Source: Chitinophaga pinensis | Lineage (GTDB): Bacteria > Pseudomonadota > Gammaproteobacteria > Burkholderiales > Burkholderiaceae_C | Length of the DNA: 61,974 bases | Assembly: GCA_943326015.2 (NCBI GenBank) | Contig: CALPRQ020000022.1 | Location: 1 to 61,974, forward strand | Direction of reading: 5' to 3' | In this document: positions 2,919-56,883 of the stretch, one piece after another | How the letters are laid out: every line of letters starts with the position of its first letter | Numbering within the stretch: position 1 is the stretch's first letter | Translations under genes and position numbers: made by a program | The notes under the pieces: model-generated | The model's input: only the letters and a program-made list of their open reading frames with translations | Database searches by the model: none | What the model was told of the DNA's origin: nothing

Positions 2919-5309
<2,391 letters not shown>

Positions 5310-49403: not shown

Positions 49404-49838
49404 ATGAACGATTCGACCGTCTGGTGGCTGCTGGCCGGAGCCGCGGTAGCGCTGGAGCTGCTGAGCGGCACCTTCTACCTGCTGATGCTGGCGCTCGGGC
49501 TGGCGGCAGCGGCGCTGGCCGCACAGGCCGGCGCCGGACTGGCCATGCAACTCGGTGCCGCGGCGCTCATCGGCGGCGGTGCGGTGCTGGTCTGGAGCCG
49601 CCTGGCACGGCAACGCACTGGCTCCAGCGACCGATCCGACAGCCCTGACCTCAATCTCGACATCGGCCAGGTCGTGCAGGTCGGGCACTGGCGCGCCGAC
49701 GGCAGCGCCCAGGTCAGGCATCGCGGTGCAGAATGGACCGTCGAGCTCGATTCCCCCTCCGCCTCCCCTGCCTCTGGCCGCTACCGCATCGTGGCCGTGC
49801 GCGGCAGTCACCTGATCGTGCAAGCCCAACCCGACTAG
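49404..49838 (+). CDS. NfeD-like membrane protein
   Basis: 144 residues. Three N-terminal helices (about 8-28, 30-45, 50-65), then an OB-fold C-terminal domain (about 85-142, IGQVVQVGHW and GSAQVRHRGAEWTVEL). NfeD proteins pair with stomatin-type proteins in membrane quality control; here the partner follows 11 bases downstream. Confidence 0.9.
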   Translation: MNDSTVWWLLAGAAVALELLSGTFYLLMLALGLAAAALAAQAGAGLAMQLGAAALIGGGAVLVWSRLARQRTGSSDRSDSPDLNLDIGQVVQVGHWRADGSAQVRHRGAEWTVELDSPSASPASGRYRIVAVRGSHLIVQAQPD

Positions 49839-49849
49839 GAGTCTTCATC

Positions 49850-50761
49850 ATGGAAATCGCCTTCGTTCTCTTCGTCATCGCCGCGATCTTCGTCATCAAG
49901 TCGATCAAGATCGTTCCGCAGCAGAACGCCTGGGTCAAGGAGCGACTCGGCAAATACGCCGGCACGCTGGCACCGGGCCTCAACTTCGTGCTGCCCTTCA
50001 TCGATCAGGTCACCTACAAGCACAGCCTGAAGGAGATCCCGCTCGACGTGCCAAGCCAGGTCTGCATCACGCGCGACAACACCCAGTTGCAGGTCGATGG
50101 CATCCTCTACTTCCAGGTCACCGACCCGATGCGCGCGAGCTACGGCAGCTCCAACTACGTGACCGCCATCACGCAGCTGGCCCAGACCACGCTGCGCAGC
50201 GTGATCGGCAAGCTCGAACTCGACAAGACCTTCGAGGAGCGCGCGATCATCAACGCCCAGGTGGTCGCCGCGATCGACGAGGCCGCGCTCAACTGGGGCG
50301 TCAAGGTGCTGCGCTACGAGATCAAGGATCTGACCCCGCCAGCCGAGATCCTGCACGCCATGCAGGCCCAGATCACCGCCGAGCGCGAGAAGCGCGCGCT
50401 GATCGCCGCCTCCGAAGGCCGCCAGCAGGAGCAGATCAACATCGCCAACGGCGAGCGCCAGGCATCGATCGCGCGCTCGGAAGGCGACAAGCAGGCCGCC
50501 ATCAACAAGGCCGAGGGCGAGGCGTCCGCGATCCTGACCGTGGCCAATGCCTCGGCGCAGGCGCTCGAACGCATCGCGGCCGCCCTGCAGGCGCCAGGCG
50601 GGGAGCAGGCGGTACAGCTCAAGGTGGCCGAACAGGCCGTCTCCGCCTACAGCCGCGTCGCCGCCGATGCGACCACCACGCTGGTGGTCCCCGGCAACAT
50701 GAACGAGGTCGCCGGACTGGTGGCATCGGCCATGCAACTGATCAAGTCGAGCCGGAATTGA
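49850..50761 (+). CDS. SPFH/stomatin-like membrane protein
   Basis: 303 residues. An N-terminal membrane anchor (EIAFVLFVIAAIFVI), the SPFH domain (about 20-185, QQNAWVKERLGKY, TRDNTQLQVDGILYFQVTD), then a Glu/Ala-rich coiled coil (about 190-265). A ribosome site (CTAGGAG) lies close to the ATG at 49850. Forms a unit with the NfeD-like gene, and resembles QmcA/stomatin-2. Confidence 0.93.
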   Translation: MEIAFVLFVIAAIFVIKSIKIVPQQNAWVKERLGKYAGTLAPGLNFVLPFIDQVTYKHSLKEIPLDVPSQVCITRDNTQLQVDGILYFQVTDPMRASYGSSNYVTAITQLAQTTLRSVIGKLELDKTFEERAIINAQVVAAIDEAALNWGVKVLRYEIKDLTPPAEILHAMQAQITAEREKRALIAASEGRQQEQINIANGERQASIARSEGDKQAAINKAEGEASAILTVANASAQALERIAAALQAPGGEQAVQLKVAEQAVSAYSRVAADATTTLVVPGNMNEVAGLVASAMQLIKSSRN

Positions 50762-50777
50762 AAAAAATCGGCACCGC

Positions 50778-50807
50778 TTGAAAAAAGCCGAAATTCCTGT
50801 CTACAAT
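50778..50807 (+). promoter_or_regulatory. sigma-70 promoter of tRNA-Ser
   Basis: -35 TTGAAA at 50778-50783 and -10 TACAAT at 50802-50807, 18 bases apart, ending 12 bases before the tRNA. Confidence 0.7.
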
Positions 50808-50819
50808 ACGAGTCTTCAC

Positions 50820-50909
<90 letters not shown>

Positions 50910-50943
50910 TGAACAGCAAACGGTAAGCCAACTTACCGCACCA

Positions 50944-50990
50944 AACCCCACTAAAACTGATGAAAATCAGGCCCTTAGTGGGGTTTTTTG
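50944..50990 (+). terminator. terminator after tRNA-Ser, inside the island
   Basis: AACCCCACTAA pairs with TTAGTGGGGTT, then TTTTTTG. The loop holds a second small hairpin (CTGAT GAAA ATCAG). It replaces the native tRNA terminator, now at 57078. Confidence 0.85.
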
Positions 50991-51043
50991 TTGCCTGAAG
51001 CCCAACGAACCCCACATGATCACACCGTTCACCACGGGCAGTC

Positions 51044-51094
51044 TGTAGGTATGGATGTAGGTACCGCCGCAGCTGCCGTTCCGAGATACCTACA
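51044..51094. promoter_or_regulatory. three TGTAGGTA sites before the integrase gene
   Basis: TGTAGGTA at 51044-51051 and 51056-51063 (12-base pitch), and its inverse TACCTACA at 51087-51094, ending 15 bases before the integrase ATG. Probably integrase arm-type sites or an autoregulatory operator. Confidence 0.5.
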
Positions 51095-51108
51095 CCGGAC
51101 CCGCCCAC

Positions 51109-52293
51109 ATGGCCACCAACACCCTGACCGACTCGCAGTGCCGCGGCTTCAAGCCCAAGGACAAGGGCTACAAGAAGTTCGACGGCGAAGGCCTCTACCT
51201 CTGGATCAAGCCCAACGGCTCCAAGCTCTGGCGCCAGTCCTTCCGCTGGGAGGGCAAGGAGCAGACCATCTCCTGGGGCCCCTACCCACAGGTCAGCCTA
51301 GCCGAGGCCCGCGCCAGGCGCGACGAGGCCAAGCAACAGCTGCGCGACGGCATCAACCTCATGGCCGCCGCCGCGCCGACCAAGCCATCCAAGCCATCCA
51401 CGCCGACCTTCTCGAAATGCGCCGAGCTCTACTGGGCCGGCCGCAAGGACTGCACGCGCAAGTACATCGACAACGCCACCCGGGCGCTCGACACCTACCT
51501 GGTGCCCGCGCTGGGCCAGCGGCCGATCGACAGTATCACCCGCAACGACCTCCTGGCCGAGCTGCGCAAGGTGGACGACGCCGGCAAGCATGTCTATGTG
51601 CGCAAGATCCGCCTGTGGGCCGACGCGGTGTTCGAGTGGGCACGCGCCAACGGCCACTGCGATCACAACCCCGCCGCCGAGATCGACCCCAAGAAGGCCT
51701 TCGCCGTGGCCAAGGTCGAGCACTTTGCCGCGCTCGAGCCCAGCGAGATGCCGCAGCTGTTCGACCGCCTGGCCTTCGAGAGCCCGCAGCAGCAGAGCGT
51801 GCTGGCCCTGCGCATGCTGGCCTACACCTGGGTGCGCACCACCGAGCTACGCCAAATGCGCTGGCACGAGATCGAGGGCGAGACCTGGCGCATCCCGGCC
51901 GGCAAGATGAAGCGGTCGCGCGACCACGTGATCCCGCTGAGCCGCCAGGCGATCGAGCTGATCGAGGTCATGCGGCAGCGCGCACGTGGCAGCGAGTACG
52001 TCTTCCGGGGCGAGAGTCGCAAGGACACGCCGATCTCGGAGAACGCCATCCTCTACCTGCTCTACCGCATCGGCTTCAAGGGCCGCATGACCGGGCACGG
52101 CTTCCGGTCGGTCGCGTCTACCTGGGCCAACGAGGCCGGCTACGAGCCCGACCACATCGAGTTCCAGCTCGCGCACAGCGAGGAGAACAAGACCCGCAGC
52201 GCCTACAACCGAGCGCGCTACCTCAAGCAGCGGCGCCAGATGCTGCAGGACTGGGCGGACTGGTTCGACGCCTGCGCCAAGCCGGTCGCCTGA
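51109..52293 (+). CDS. tyrosine-type site-specific integrase (P4-like, DUF4102 N-terminus)
   Basis: 394 residues. N-terminal arm-binding domain (about 1-90, KKFDGEGLYLWIKPNGSKLW), core-binding domain (about 100-185), catalytic domain (about 200-385). Catalytic residues: Arg in TWVRTTELRQMRW, HGFRS (HxxR), the second His in LAHSEENKTRS, and the Tyr in AYNRARY. Complete length. It lies 200 bases from the tRNA-Ser target and should integrate the island there. High-GC, unlike the AT-rich cargo further right. Confidence 0.93.
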   Translation: MATNTLTDSQCRGFKPKDKGYKKFDGEGLYLWIKPNGSKLWRQSFRWEGKEQTISWGPYPQVSLAEARARRDEAKQQLRDGINLMAAAAPTKPSKPSTPTFSKCAELYWAGRKDCTRKYIDNATRALDTYLVPALGQRPIDSITRNDLLAELRKVDDAGKHVYVRKIRLWADAVFEWARANGHCDHNPAAEIDPKKAFAVAKVEHFAALEPSEMPQLFDRLAFESPQQQSVLALRMLAYTWVRTTELRQMRWHEIEGETWRIPAGKMKRSRDHVIPLSRQAIELIEVMRQRARGSEYVFRGESRKDTPISENAILYLLYRIGFKGRMTGHGFRSVASTWANEAGYEPDHIEFQLAHSEENKTRSAYNRARYLKQRRQMLQDWADWFDACAKPVA

Positions 52294-52993
52294 GTGCACC
52301 GATCTAGCCTGCCCAGAATGAATACCCCCAAGGGTTTTTAATCCCGAAAACCCCCGAAAACTTGCACGTTTTTTAGGCAAAACGACCCGAAACACGCCGC
52401 CGCCAAAATCCCGGGGAGGGTTCGGGAAAGACCTAACCAGCAATACTGATACTTGAAAATGCCTGAAAACCGATACAGAACAACCACTTACTAGACACCT
52501 ACTACTCTTACAAAACTTCAACGATGGCCTTACTGGGTTAGAAGAAGTGACTTCAACAATCCTGGTAAATGCACTCTATATAAATCAACTACTTAGAGCT
52601 TTGTAAGACGCTCAGTAACGCCTTGTTGAACGGCGATATAACCAAGTTTTCCCGTTCCAAGTCATGGGGTTGCAGGCGCTTTTCGGGCGCTTTTTTTATT
52701 GTTGAACTTCTCCCGAACCCTTCCCGGAAAAGCTGGGAAAAACTGCCTGAAACCGGCTCAGACTGGGGCGGGGGTATGGCTTGCCGGGCATGGCTTCCTC
52801 ACGCTGGCCGACGGATTCCGTCAAATCCCGACGCGGCAGAGGCCCTGGAAAACGCCCTCCCCCACAGGGAAGCCGGGGGGCCGACCGGGTCGTCATGCGA
52901 GGCCGATTTAGCGCGGGGGCGCGGCGGGGTCTCGACTGCGCGCTGGGGCAGAATGGTGTCCAGCCCCTGCCCGACAGCCCCTTTCTCCCCTGG
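52294..52993. other. gene-poor stretch between the integrase and the IS66 remnant
   Basis: I see no convincing gene. It holds an imperfect inverted repeat (see separate entry), a hairpin-T-run (AGGCGC/GCGCTT then T7) at about 52671-52698, and a GC-rich part (52740-52993) that may be debris from whatever truncated the IS66 element. Open frames here lack ribosome sites and recognisable motifs. Confidence 0.5.
52409..52733. repeat. inverted repeat pair flanking about 280 bp
   Basis: CCGGGGAGGGTTCGGGAAA at about 52411-52429 faces CCCGAACCCTTCCCGG at about 52712-52727, with two or three mismatches over 18 bases. The interior has no gene. It may be a miniature element or the ends of a decayed one. 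Confidence 0.4.
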
Positions 52994-53122
52994 GAACGCC
53001 CGCGCGAACGGATCCAGCCCCAGCGACTGCTCGACCAAGGTCGCCAGGCCATTGATGTTCTTGCGGAAGTCCACGGCTTCACGGTGCAGGTAGACCTTGA
53101 GCCCATCGTCCAAGCGAAACAT
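52799..53122 (-). pseudogene. IS66 family TnpB, truncated
   Basis: The first about 42 residues match IS66 TnpB closely (MFRLDDGLKVYLHREAVDF, then GLDPFARA). Homology stops near 52995 and the frame runs on through unrelated sequence to a stop at 52799. The start overlaps the tnpA stop (ATGA), the normal IS66 arrangement. Not functional. Confidence 0.8.
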
Positions 53123-53677
53123 CAGCGCGCCCCCAGCGCTTCGATCATCGCCTTGACCAAGGCACCATCGCGCCCGCCACATTCGAGCTCGAGCGTCACC
53201 CCGTTGGGCAACTGCGCTCTCAGGCGAGCGGGCACTGGCGCTCGCAGCGCCGAGGTGGCCGCTTCGCGTCGTACCACCACCGGTGCAGCCTCAGTCACGG
53301 CTTCGACTGGCTGATCGACTTCACCGAGCGTGACCACCGGCACGAAGGCCGGCTCCACGCACTCAGCGACAGCGATTCCGCTCGTGGTGCCTTCGCGCTC
53401 GTCGTCGCGAATCCATTTGTGCAGCTGGTTGACGTTGACGCCCGCCCTGAGCGCCATGCCTGATATCGACACCCCGGGTCGGCGACACGCCTCGATCAGC
53501 CCGCGCTTGCCGTCCGGGTCGAAAGTCCGCTTGCCCGTGGGTCCCACCTTGCTGACCTTCAGCGGGAGAAAGCTCAAATCATCATCTGTCATCGTTGCGT
53601 CCGCAGTTCTTGGTTGCGGACGCAATCCTGTCAAACCTCGGCCACCGGCGCCAGGGCGTAGTTGTTCACGCGCTTAC
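52994..53677 (-). mobile_element. IS66 family remnant
   Basis: The left terminal repeat starts GTAAGCG at 53677 on the minus strand, then comes an 85-base leader, tnpA and the first 43 codons of tnpB. The rest (tnpB end, tnpC transposase, right end) is missing, so it cannot move on its own. Confidence 0.72.
53122..53592 (-). CDS. IS66 family TnpA accessory protein
   Basis: 156 residues from the ATG at 53592 (MTDDDLSFLPL). It has a helix-turn-helix N-terminus (KRGLIEACRRPGVSISGMALRAG in outline, then NQLHKWIR) and a C-terminal part ending DGALVKAMIEALGAR. The frame is intact, but the element lacks tnpB and tnpC. An IS66-type left end (GTAAGCG on the minus strand) lies at 53671-53677. Confidence 0.8.
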   Translation of the reverse strand: MTDDDLSFLPLKVSKVGPTGKRTFDPDGKRGLIEACRRPGVSISGMALRAGVNVNQLHKWIRDDEREGTTSGIAVAECVEPAFVPVVTLGEVDQPVEAVTEAAPVVVRREAATSALRAPVPARLRAQLPNGVTLELECGGRDGALVKAMIEALGAR

Positions 53678-53782: not shown

Positions 53783-54481
53783 TCAGGACAAAAATTCATT
53801 TATATGATCATTCAATTTTTTGAGATAAGGAACCCTATCCCCTAAATTGCAATAGATCTCGGCAAAGTCCAGAGCTTCCATTGTCTTTTTTGCCTCACCT
53901 TTTTCGTAGTCTATGCCGGCTAGCGCATAGCATGTCTGCATATCTTCTGCAGGACAATCTCTGGAAGCAACATCATCAAGTGAAGGATCAAAATCCAAGA
54001 CTTCCTTTATAGCCTCAATCGTCAAAGACTCATGAACTCTTTGAAAATGAGTGCACTCCAACAAAAACCATGCCTCAACCTCCATAACACCAAGAATAAA
54101 ATCAACTGGTATTAGTTTTTTACGTATTCCAAACCGCAATCCATTTTCTAGACAACCAATTTTCTCACGAGAAAATTTCGGCCTAACATCTCTAATTCCT
54201 ATTATTTTTGTATAATTTGATTTTGTAAGACTTTCATGCTCCTCTCTTATTCTGCCGGCGACCTGATGATCTCCTCCGCAATCATATATTAAAACATAGT
54301 AATCTTCGCCTGTCGGAATTTTCTTTATATTAATCTGACTAATCGTTTTTGGAACCGCAGAACCGCCAGCTATTCTTCTGGAGTCAATAATGACATTACC
54401 TTTTCCAACAACCTGCTCAATAAGCTTAGTGACAAATGTAACCTCAGTAAGCCCCTCAACAAAAAAGGCGATTTTCTTCAT
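53783..54481 (-). CDS. TOPRIM-like protein with VEG-TE motif, putative nuclease of a two-gene defence module
   Basis: 232 residues, AT-rich. It starts MKKIAFFVEGLTEVTFV: the VEGxTE motif (Glu9, Glu13) is that of DUF4276/OLD-like TOPRIM proteins. YYVLIYDCGGDHQV (Asp67, Asp71) resembles the second acidic motif, followed by KIIGIRDVRP and VMEVEAWFLLE, as in this group. Its start overlaps the upstream ATPase stop by one base. In split OLD-like, PARIS and AbiL systems an ATPase senses phage and a TOPRIM partner is the effector. I cannot place this pair in a named system with certainty. Confidence 0.65.
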   Translation of the reverse strand: MKKIAFFVEGLTEVTFVTKLIEQVVGKGNVIIDSRRIAGGSAVPKTISQINIKKIPTGEDYYVLIYDCGGDHQVAGRIREEHESLTKSNYTKIIGIRDVRPKFSREKIGCLENGLRFGIRKKLIPVDFILGVMEVEAWFLLECTHFQRVHESLTIEAIKEVLDFDPSLDDVASRDCPAEDMQTCYALAGIDYEKGEAKKTMEALDFAEIYCNLGDRVPYLKKLNDHINEFLS

Positions 54482-55614
54482 CAGAATTCCTCACTGTTAT
54501 GAAGAAAATCCATCTCCAAGAAAGAGAAGTTACTCAACCCAGTAAATTCAAAATTCTCAAATATTTCACTCGAATTGCTTTGGTTTTTAACATTTACAAT
54601 AGATCCTGTTCTTTGCAAAACAGACCACTCATTCAAAGGAACTTCATTCATCACAAATTTATCGTTTGTAGACATCAGCAATTGAATCCCAGCAGACTCC
54701 GCCTTCTCTCTAAGAAGGCCGATAAGCTTGCATGATCTATCAAAATCCAATCCCTCACCGATGTCATCTATGATGAAGCAGCCACCTTTTTTGCTTAACT
54801 CATAGTAATTAATAAATATTAAAATCGACAACGCTCTAAACATACCGTCCGACATTCCAAATTGGTCTGTATAGCATTCAAGATCTTCTTCCTGCACGCA
54901 AAGAGAAAGCACATCATTTGGAATCCCCTCTATCTTTATAGTAATTGGTTGCTTCAAGGCAACATCATTCACAAAGTAATTGATTTCAGCCAAATCGGAT
55001 TTAAGTTGATCAATAAACTGTTGGCCGAATTTTTTCGCAGCATCCCTAAATAACCCAGCAATCTGGTTTTGATCTTGTTCATCAATTTTTTGCCCGCCCT
55101 CACTAAAAACAACTAGCGAATGTTTGGGTTGATCTAAGCCAAATTTATAGTATCGCATTTCCGAGCCCCATAAGAATAACGGCTCAAGAAAATCATGCTG
55201 AATTGCATCCCGCCTGGCAACAGCAGCAAGCATGTTTTGAGGAGTTTGAAAATCAATCATAGCTCCAAGTTTCTGGTATTTAATTCTTCCCATCCCTCCA
55301 ACAGACCTATCCAACACAACCTCATCATTAACTATTAGTTTTTCATAAATAATCTCTTTATTCGAAGCTTCAAACGAATATTCATACAAATTTGAATCGA
55401 AATCAAAAATACAACTATAGGAACCACTATCTCCTGGAGGTCGCTTAGACATAAGGGAGTCGCCTAGACTTTTTATTACATTAATAGCCCTTGATTTTCC
55501 TGATGCATTTTTTCCGACAAGCAAATTTCTATCGCCAAGCAACAAGTCTTTCAATTCCCATTTTGTCGGAGAATCTTTGTTTTCTATGTAGCTCAGCGTT
55601 TTAAGTTTCATCAT
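54481..55614 (-). CDS. AAA/ABC-type ATPase (SMC/OLD-like), putative sensor of a two-gene defence module
   Basis: 377 residues, AT-rich, compact. Walker A LVGKNASGKS (34-41 core), ABC-like signature FGMSDGMFRALS (252-263), Walker B CFIIDDIGEGLD (279-290) and a switch STND (315-318). These mark an AAA_15/AAA_21-type ATPase with a short inserted middle. Codon use and base composition differ sharply from the flanks, so it was acquired. The start is at 55614 (or the next ATG, 55611), without a strong ribosome site. Followed directly by the TOPRIM-like gene; 270 bases upstream lies repeat copy A. Confidence 0.75.
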   Translation of the reverse strand: MMKLKTLSYIENKDSPTKWELKDLLLGDRNLLVGKNASGKSRAINVIKSLGDSLMSKRPPGDSGSYSCIFDFDSNLYEYSFEASNKEIIYEKLIVNDEVVLDRSVGGMGRIKYQKLGAMIDFQTPQNMLAAVARRDAIQHDFLEPLFLWGSEMRYYKFGLDQPKHSLVVFSEGGQKIDEQDQNQIAGLFRDAAKKFGQQFIDQLKSDLAEINYFVNDVALKQPITIKIEGIPNDVLSLCVQEEDLECYTDQFGMSDGMFRALSILIFINYYELSKKGGCFIIDDIGEGLDFDRSCKLIGLLREKAESAGIQLLMSTNDKFVMNEVPLNEWSVLQRTGSIVNVKNQSNSSEIFENFEFTGLSNFSFLEMDFLHNSEEF

Positions 55615-56055
55615 GATGCAGTTTTAGTTAATCTCTTCTTTATTTCAACAAACTGAATTTCAGCCAGGAAAAGGAATTTATTTTCAGATTAATAGTTTTC
55701 AATGAGTCAGCACAAAAAGAATCAGGTTTTTTGAAACCATGCGCTTCCTGAACGACCACTTTCTCAAGAAGTTCAGCCACAAGCCAGCCCACACTTTGAA
55801 GCCGGGTCTGCTGAATCAGGTGGGTGCGGAGCTGGATTTTGAAGCTTTTGGAGACATTGTTTTTTAGGGAAAACTAATCAAAGCACAAAGTGTAGCACCG
55901 TGTTACACACCATTCCGCACCCCCAAGGGGGTGCACGGGTTTGGTGGCCCGGTTTCCTCAGGCACAGCAGCCGCACCCATCCTCATGGTCTCGGCTTCAC
56001 TTCAGAGACTGAGTGAGCGTATCAAAGTCACGCATCCACCTCGGCGACCTGACCG
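55615..56055. other. intergenic region with repeat copy A
   Basis: 441 bases without a supported gene. The left part is AT-rich leader of the ATPase operon; an open frame of 42 codons (55739-55867, plus strand) has no ribosome site or recognisable similarity. The right part is the 121-bp repeat copy A. Confidence 0.5.
55883..56003. repeat. direct repeat, copy A (about 121 bp)
   Basis: About 80% identical to 56762-56883 by eye, with one single-base gap. It contains an operator-like GTGTAGCACCGTGTTACAC (55890-55908), a perfect hairpin GCACCCCCAAGGGGGTGC (55917-55934) and a conserved GCAGCCGC..CCCAT stretch. It lies upstream of the minus-strand ATPase/TOPRIM unit. Confidence 0.85.
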
Positions 56056-56661: not shown

Positions 56662-56761
56662 GGAAGTTGGACTTCATGAGGATCTCCATTTGCCGCTACC
56701 GGCAGCGACAGAAAGTGGTGAAAGCCGGTGAAGATCAGTATCTCACATATTGGTTTTCTAA

Positions 56762-56883
56762 TTACACAGTGTATCACTGTGTTACACTTCATTCCGCACC
56801 CCCAAGGGGGTGCACGGGTTTAGCAGCCCGGTTCCACTAGGCGCAGCAGCCGCGCCCATTCTTCATGGTTGCGGCTTCACTTT
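56762..56883. repeat. direct repeat, copy B (about 122 bp)
   Basis: Partner of copy A. The operator-like part is here a perfect palindrome ACACAGTG-TAT-CACTGTGT (56764-56782), and the GCACCCCCAAGGGGGTGC hairpin (56796-56813) is identical. It lies about 100 bases upstream of the minus-strand DUF4760 gene, as copy A lies upstream of the ATPase unit. Confidence 0.85.

Follow-up and report, generated by a model that had tools for sequence, protein, structure and literature searches.

A two-gene ATPase/TOPRIM-like module from a tRNA-Ser island as a candidate anti-phage system

The window analysed here, 61,974 nucleotides of contig CALPRQ020000022.1 (assembly GCA_943326015.2), carries a pair of genes which probably represents a further anti-virus system beside the known ones; it is a candidate, and its role in defence is predicted. 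The first gene (54481..55614, minus strand) codes for an ABC-type ATPase of 377 amino acids with a Walker A motif, GKNASGKS (residues 34-41), a signature, MSDGM (254-258), a combined Walker B/D-loop segment, FIIDDIGEGLD (280-290), and N317 at the H-loop position. The second gene (53783..54481, minus strand) codes for a 232-residue TOPRIM-like protein related to DUF4276 with the invariant residues E9, E13, D98, E134, E136 and K194. The two open reading frames (ORFs) have a single base in common, within TGATG. They had been picked out, with exactly these boundaries, in an original prediction that was made from the letters of the DNA alone. Its statement that the pair is far more AT-rich than its surroundings was borne out as well: the GC-content of the 1832-bp pair is 37.4%, compared with 66.0% in the remaining window, and among 563 other 1832-bp segments the lowest value is still 57.5%. 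A promoter and terminator scan yielded five promoter-like sites, with 4.9 expected, and no terminator. The pair lies inside an island, as predicted, adjoining an integrase at a tRNA-Ser gene, and is mobile cargo.

ATPase/TOPRIM pairs are a large anti-phage class in which the function of the TOPRIM partner is largely unknown, as described in PMC12409363. The present lineage is without a name in PADLOC, Pfam and NCBIfam, and scans built on such sets would miss it.

Conservation and kinship of the gene pair

The search for relatives started from the small protein and was continued with alignments of the two proteins. Thirty other contigs were examined (11 from IMG/VR, 18 from genomes and one plasmid). 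Of these contigs, 28 carry intact copies of both genes; another (L004) begins within the small gene, and the copy on the last (L024) is broken. The alignments used below have 28 members, i.e. the window pair and 27 relatives, with L004, L024 and the plasmid pair L006 set aside and the near-copies L012 and L013 each counted; a plasmid match (H2) and the loci L155 and L156 lie outside the analysed set. Identity of the 27 relatives to the window proteins is 23-53% for the small protein and 28-48% for the ATPase. With both genes whole on 28 of the 30 other contigs and this level of identity in the aligned relatives, the pair is, as judged from the alignments, far beyond chance. The two genes were found together wherever both were visible as a whole.

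The relatives are named in Polaromonas, Acidithiobacillus, cyanobacteria, Dysgonomonas and other Bacteroidetes, and Desulfobacter-type bacteria, thus spanning at least four phyla as read from organism names. The distribution is rare and patchy. The pair occurs in one of 299 genomes of the window's taxonomic family, its own, and at E 1e-15 in three of 398 genomes of the phylum, the other two belonging to a single other genus. In 24 of the 27 relatives the pair is more than 5 points AT-richer than its flanks. Two plasmids were matched in a plasmid search; a phage collection gave zero matches at E 1e-3.

The original prediction had also held that the pair cannot be assigned to a named system, and this stands: the PADLOC, Pfam and NCBIfam profile sets give the pair no name, NCBIfam naming neither protein. 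The small protein shows kinship to DUF4276. The window protein scores 19.1 bits with Pfam PF14103, below the gathering cut-off of 30.2; 22 of the 28 members match this model at E 1e-3, the window's own protein not among them. By sequence it is a distant relative of DUF4276 and not a clear member. HEC-01, a PADLOC candidate system consisting of an ATPase and a DUF4276 protein, was considered and rejected: full-length matches to HEC-01A and HEC-01B are absent, the window pair reaching 26.4 and 21 bits, compared with 426-646 and 192-280 bits (best models) in five ordinary DUF4276 pairs that served as positive controls. Two of the models, PDLC04143 and PDLC04144, seem to carry each other's label. 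The likeness is that of a distant relative, HEC-01B models matching up to 23 of the 28 small proteins (best 1.8e-12). The same genome has, on contig C42 (20609-24187, L095), an ordinary pair of the HEC-01 type with 539.7 and 208.4 bits, usable as a positive control. No literature on DUF4276, alone or combined with other terms, or on HEC-01 together with PADLOC was found in one open-access library.

Membership in AbiL was likewise rejected. AbiLi is the best PADLOC match of the window ATPase (78.8 bits, 8.9e-23; 77-79 bits across searches), yet this must be taken as background because the five HEC-01 ATPases score 80-92 bits on the same model; a class-wide search gave 242-351 bits for its 26 best matches. 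The AbiLii model was absent from the 14 PADLOC families which the 28 members matched at E 1e-3. The same holds for the AriB model of PARIS, which we take to be contained in the PADLOC library, although a distant relative could escape such a search. The two AriA models fit the window ATPase less well still, with 17.8 bits (PDLC02979) and 54 bits (PDLC02980); the former reaches up to 263 bits elsewhere, and on the latter the five HEC-01 ATPases attain 84-132 bits. A PDB sequence search with the ATPase profile matched AriA over the first 49 positions only (E 0.003).

In a tree of the ATPases the window's protein family forms a clade separate from the AbiLi matches (14 of 22 rows used) and the AriA matches (14 of 23). 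These comparison loci were named by best model score alone, and among the AriA rows the weaker ones (the lowest with 88 bits) could represent other ATPases; five of the 50 AbiLi/AriA loci had no ORF with a Walker A motif in the first 80 residues. The one-chain OLD nucleases of Class 1 and Class 2 are similar in their TOPRIM fold and in the order of the metal-site residues. They differ in that the window and 28 intact relatives have two separate genes. In retron/Septu systems the partner of PtuA differs, HNH being a domain of PtuB (PMC10440598), whereas here it is TOPRIM-like. Pfam scans of seven proteins from the island and its flanks showed no reverse transcriptase. From the multi-gene system MADS, mad3 was matched by 22 of the 28 ATPases (16.8 bits for that of the window) and mad4 by four of the 28 small proteins (best 1e-4). 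Taken together, these comparisons place the pair, as far as sequences can tell, as a separate lineage among the known ATPase/TOPRIM kinds; it is not categorically new.

Active-site residues of the ATPase and the TOPRIM-like protein

The original prediction credited the ATPase with all nucleotide motifs. This was correct for Walker A and the signature. In all 28 members, however, the alignment shows Asp (D284) instead of the catalytic Glu following Walker B and Asn (N317) instead of the H-loop His. The D-loop residue is also an Asp throughout. This separates the family from the AriA set, which has His in the D-loop in 22 of 23 and in the H-loop in 23 of 23 rows, and from Ts OLD, where the D-loop residue is His (PMC7049728). 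An alignment-free Walker-B pattern gave Asp in 23 of 28 rows of the family and Glu in 18 of 22 AbiLi rows; it matched only two of 23 DUF4276 rows and 10 of 23 AriA rows (with one Asp and one Asn among AriA), too few for a second check. Since the Glu of Walker B and the His of the H-loop are missing, the switch may depend on ATP binding or slow hydrolysis to a greater degree than on fast turnover.

In the small protein E9, E13, D98, E134, E136 and K194 are invariant in all 28 members. An acidic DCGGD motif had been proposed as motif II. This was rejected, as the alignment places the DxD elsewhere: D98, within IIGIRDV, is aligned with the leading Asp of the DxD in each of 27 other DUF4276 proteins, and D67 of DCGGD is Asp in only 16 of 28 members and Asn in the remaining 12. 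For this comparison 27 of 30 DUF4276 loci were used; L084, L096 and L099, broken or cut, were left out. IIGIRDV is thus read from the alignment as a degenerate form of the DxD; in order and spacing, MEVEAWFL matches the metal-B segment of OLD. The odd spacing noticed in the original prediction is explained by the mis-assignment of motif II. At the second place of the DxD 23 of the 27 ordinary DUF4276 proteins have an acid (20 Asp, 3 Glu; otherwise 3 Tyr, 1 Arg), in contrast to none in the window's family, where position 100 is Tyr in 16, Arg in eight, Phe in three and Ala in one. A complete TOPRIM set, i.e. the Glu of motif I plus a full DxD, is therefore lacking: E9 and D98 are kept and position 100 is never acidic.

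The predicted structure of the small protein moderately resembles OLD TOPRIM domains, so that the TOPRIM fold, whose absence from a model would have spoken against the original prediction, is present in the model. Foldseek searches with it against the PDB and against viral models gave only weak and mixed matches, and PDB sequence searches with the small protein, as a single sequence or as a profile, nothing useful.

Might another acid have replaced the one lost from the DxD? D71 is Asp in 25 and Glu in three of the 28 members and may therefore serve as a metal ligand in place of the lost acid, a hypothesis drawn from the alignment. The 29th member, the plasmid pair L006, which is outside the 28-member set, counts against such a takeover and weakens the notion of a moved acid: it has Asn at the place of residue 67 and Gly at that of 71, with a Glu one place further on. 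We regard as clearly less likely than not the reading that the pair is a separate ATPase/TOPRIM immunity lineage with a rebuilt engine, in which both hydrolysis residues were swapped and the second metal-A acid moved to position 71. According to this reading the ATPase would resemble Rad50-type proteins in having a D-loop Asp, and position 71 would lie behind the neighbouring strand; activation would proceed via ATP-bound assembly or DNA binding and not via hydrolysis-driven release, and the choice of target could differ from that of AriB and OLD.

The pair could also be a repair or gene-control pair of the mobile element itself, e.g. a RecF-like ATPase with a structural, non-cutting TOPRIM partner. 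The loss of the DxD Asp, the Asp in the D-loop of 28 of 28 ATPases and a weak RecF match (16.1 bits, cut-off 172) would be in line with this. The six residues invariant in all 28 small proteins fit selection on a metal site, and the distribution is rare and patchy; both argue against such a role, which we consider very improbable. Because both enzymes show fixed departures from standard motifs, the pair lends itself to finding out which residues a sensing switch and a TOPRIM nuclease really require. The pair is real and well conserved, and the corrected reading of its active site makes it testable.

A proposed immune mechanism and its alternatives

We favour, with reasonable though by no means full confidence, the interpretation that the pair is a two-gene, island-borne immune module on the PARIS plan. 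PARIS has the same two-gene layout and, among systems with a worked-out mechanism, comes nearest: there AriB is held by AriA until a phage protein brings about its release, and it then cuts tRNAs (PMC12409363). By analogy, the ATPase would bind ATP, assemble and keep the TOPRIM-like protein inactive in a complex. Upon sensing a phage product or structure it would change its shape and free or activate its partner. The latter would act as a metal-dependent nuclease via E9, E13, D98, E134, E136 and K194, and the infected cell would stop growth before phage release, i.e. by abortive infection. The folds of both proteins are predicted. The restraint step calls for caution. WonAB, where an ATPase is combined with a different nuclease (PMC12137116), is a reminder that the ATPase may be required for activating its partner and not merely for holding it back.

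The presumed target would be a nucleic acid; host tRNA or another RNA is considered the most likely, as with AriB. Alternatively, the pair might be an OLD-like, DNA-targeting nuclease module: unusual DNA would be recognised by the ATPase, and its TOPRIM partner would nick or degrade phage or plasmid DNA directly, without host suicide. The precedent for a two-gene pair, AriB, is a tRNase (PMC12409363), which speaks against this alternative; the altered metal-A site points to neither target. We rate DNA targeting as rather improbable.

The overlapping two-gene layout and the island position would equally suit an addiction module of the island with a TOPRIM toxin and an ATPase antitoxin. Loss of the island would then kill or arrest the cell, and any anti-phage effect would be secondary. 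A survey mentions TOPRIM_OLD domains that occur in pairs with AAA antitoxins (PMC10440598), PDB entries call AriA an 'antitoxin', and no result of our analysis is directly contrary to such a role. However, PARIS is laid out in the same way and functions in defence (PMC12409363), and the authors of the survey themselves speculate on defence for AAA-neutralised pairs (PMC10440598). We think addiction unlikely and retain the PARIS-like immune module as the preferred interpretation.

The tRNA-Ser site in the window and in congeners

The gene order in the island is tRNA-Ser(GGA), integrase, IS66 remnants and the pair. The tRNA gene (50820..50909, plus strand) is taken as the integration site. A tyrosine integrase of 394 amino acids follows (51109..52293, plus strand; Pfam PF13356, PF00589 and PF22022), and then the IS66 remnants (52799..53634, minus strand; PF05717 and PF01527), which are TnpB-like (52799-53182) and TnpA-like (53122-53634). 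A right-hand copy of the tRNA end was not found within the window. Three window neighbours were without a PADLOC match. Upstream of the pair a DUF4760 gene is flanked by a 106-base direct repeat, 83% identical (55878-55983 and 56757-56862); the region of the second copy has similar stretches elsewhere in the same genome and in congeners.

Among 143 neighbour proteins of the 28 pairs Phage_integrase was the commonest Pfam family with nine; a profile made from the window integrase recovered only two. Strong PADLOC matches of neighbours, such as PDC-S37, Hhe, PDC-S02 and a type II methyltransferase, occurred once each; there was no control set of neighbours, and enrichment is not claimed.

The tRNA-Ser locus is the same in the four congeners compared. 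The pair had no match in the genomes of three of them by protein search, nor in the compared stretches of all four by blastn. One congener (L069) has the same integrase, 88% identical over window positions 49759-52946, and in place of the pair an NA37 protein, a 482-residue protein without Pfam match and an MqsA-type antitoxin. The NA37 nucleoid-associated protein and the 482-residue protein (L069, 3908-6435) form a two-gene cargo without PADLOC match, possibly a further defence candidate. In L071 a different integrase-like gene occupies the site and in L070 a transposase-like gene, with only 2 kb to the contig end (both read from the sequence). The congener with L071 has the window's integrase module on another contig, L072, where the last 23 bases of the tRNA open it; its cargo is a Rha-type gene and a ClpP/SDH-like protease gene (3763-4728), the latter below Pfam cut-offs and without PADLOC match. 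In the fourth congener (L068, 1-15401) the site harbours a compact block of about 11 kb that looks like a capsid-forming phage satellite: it contains genes for capsid, portal and terminase as well as an integrase-like ORF; on its far side is a copy of the last 14 tRNA bases plus flank, 87% identical.
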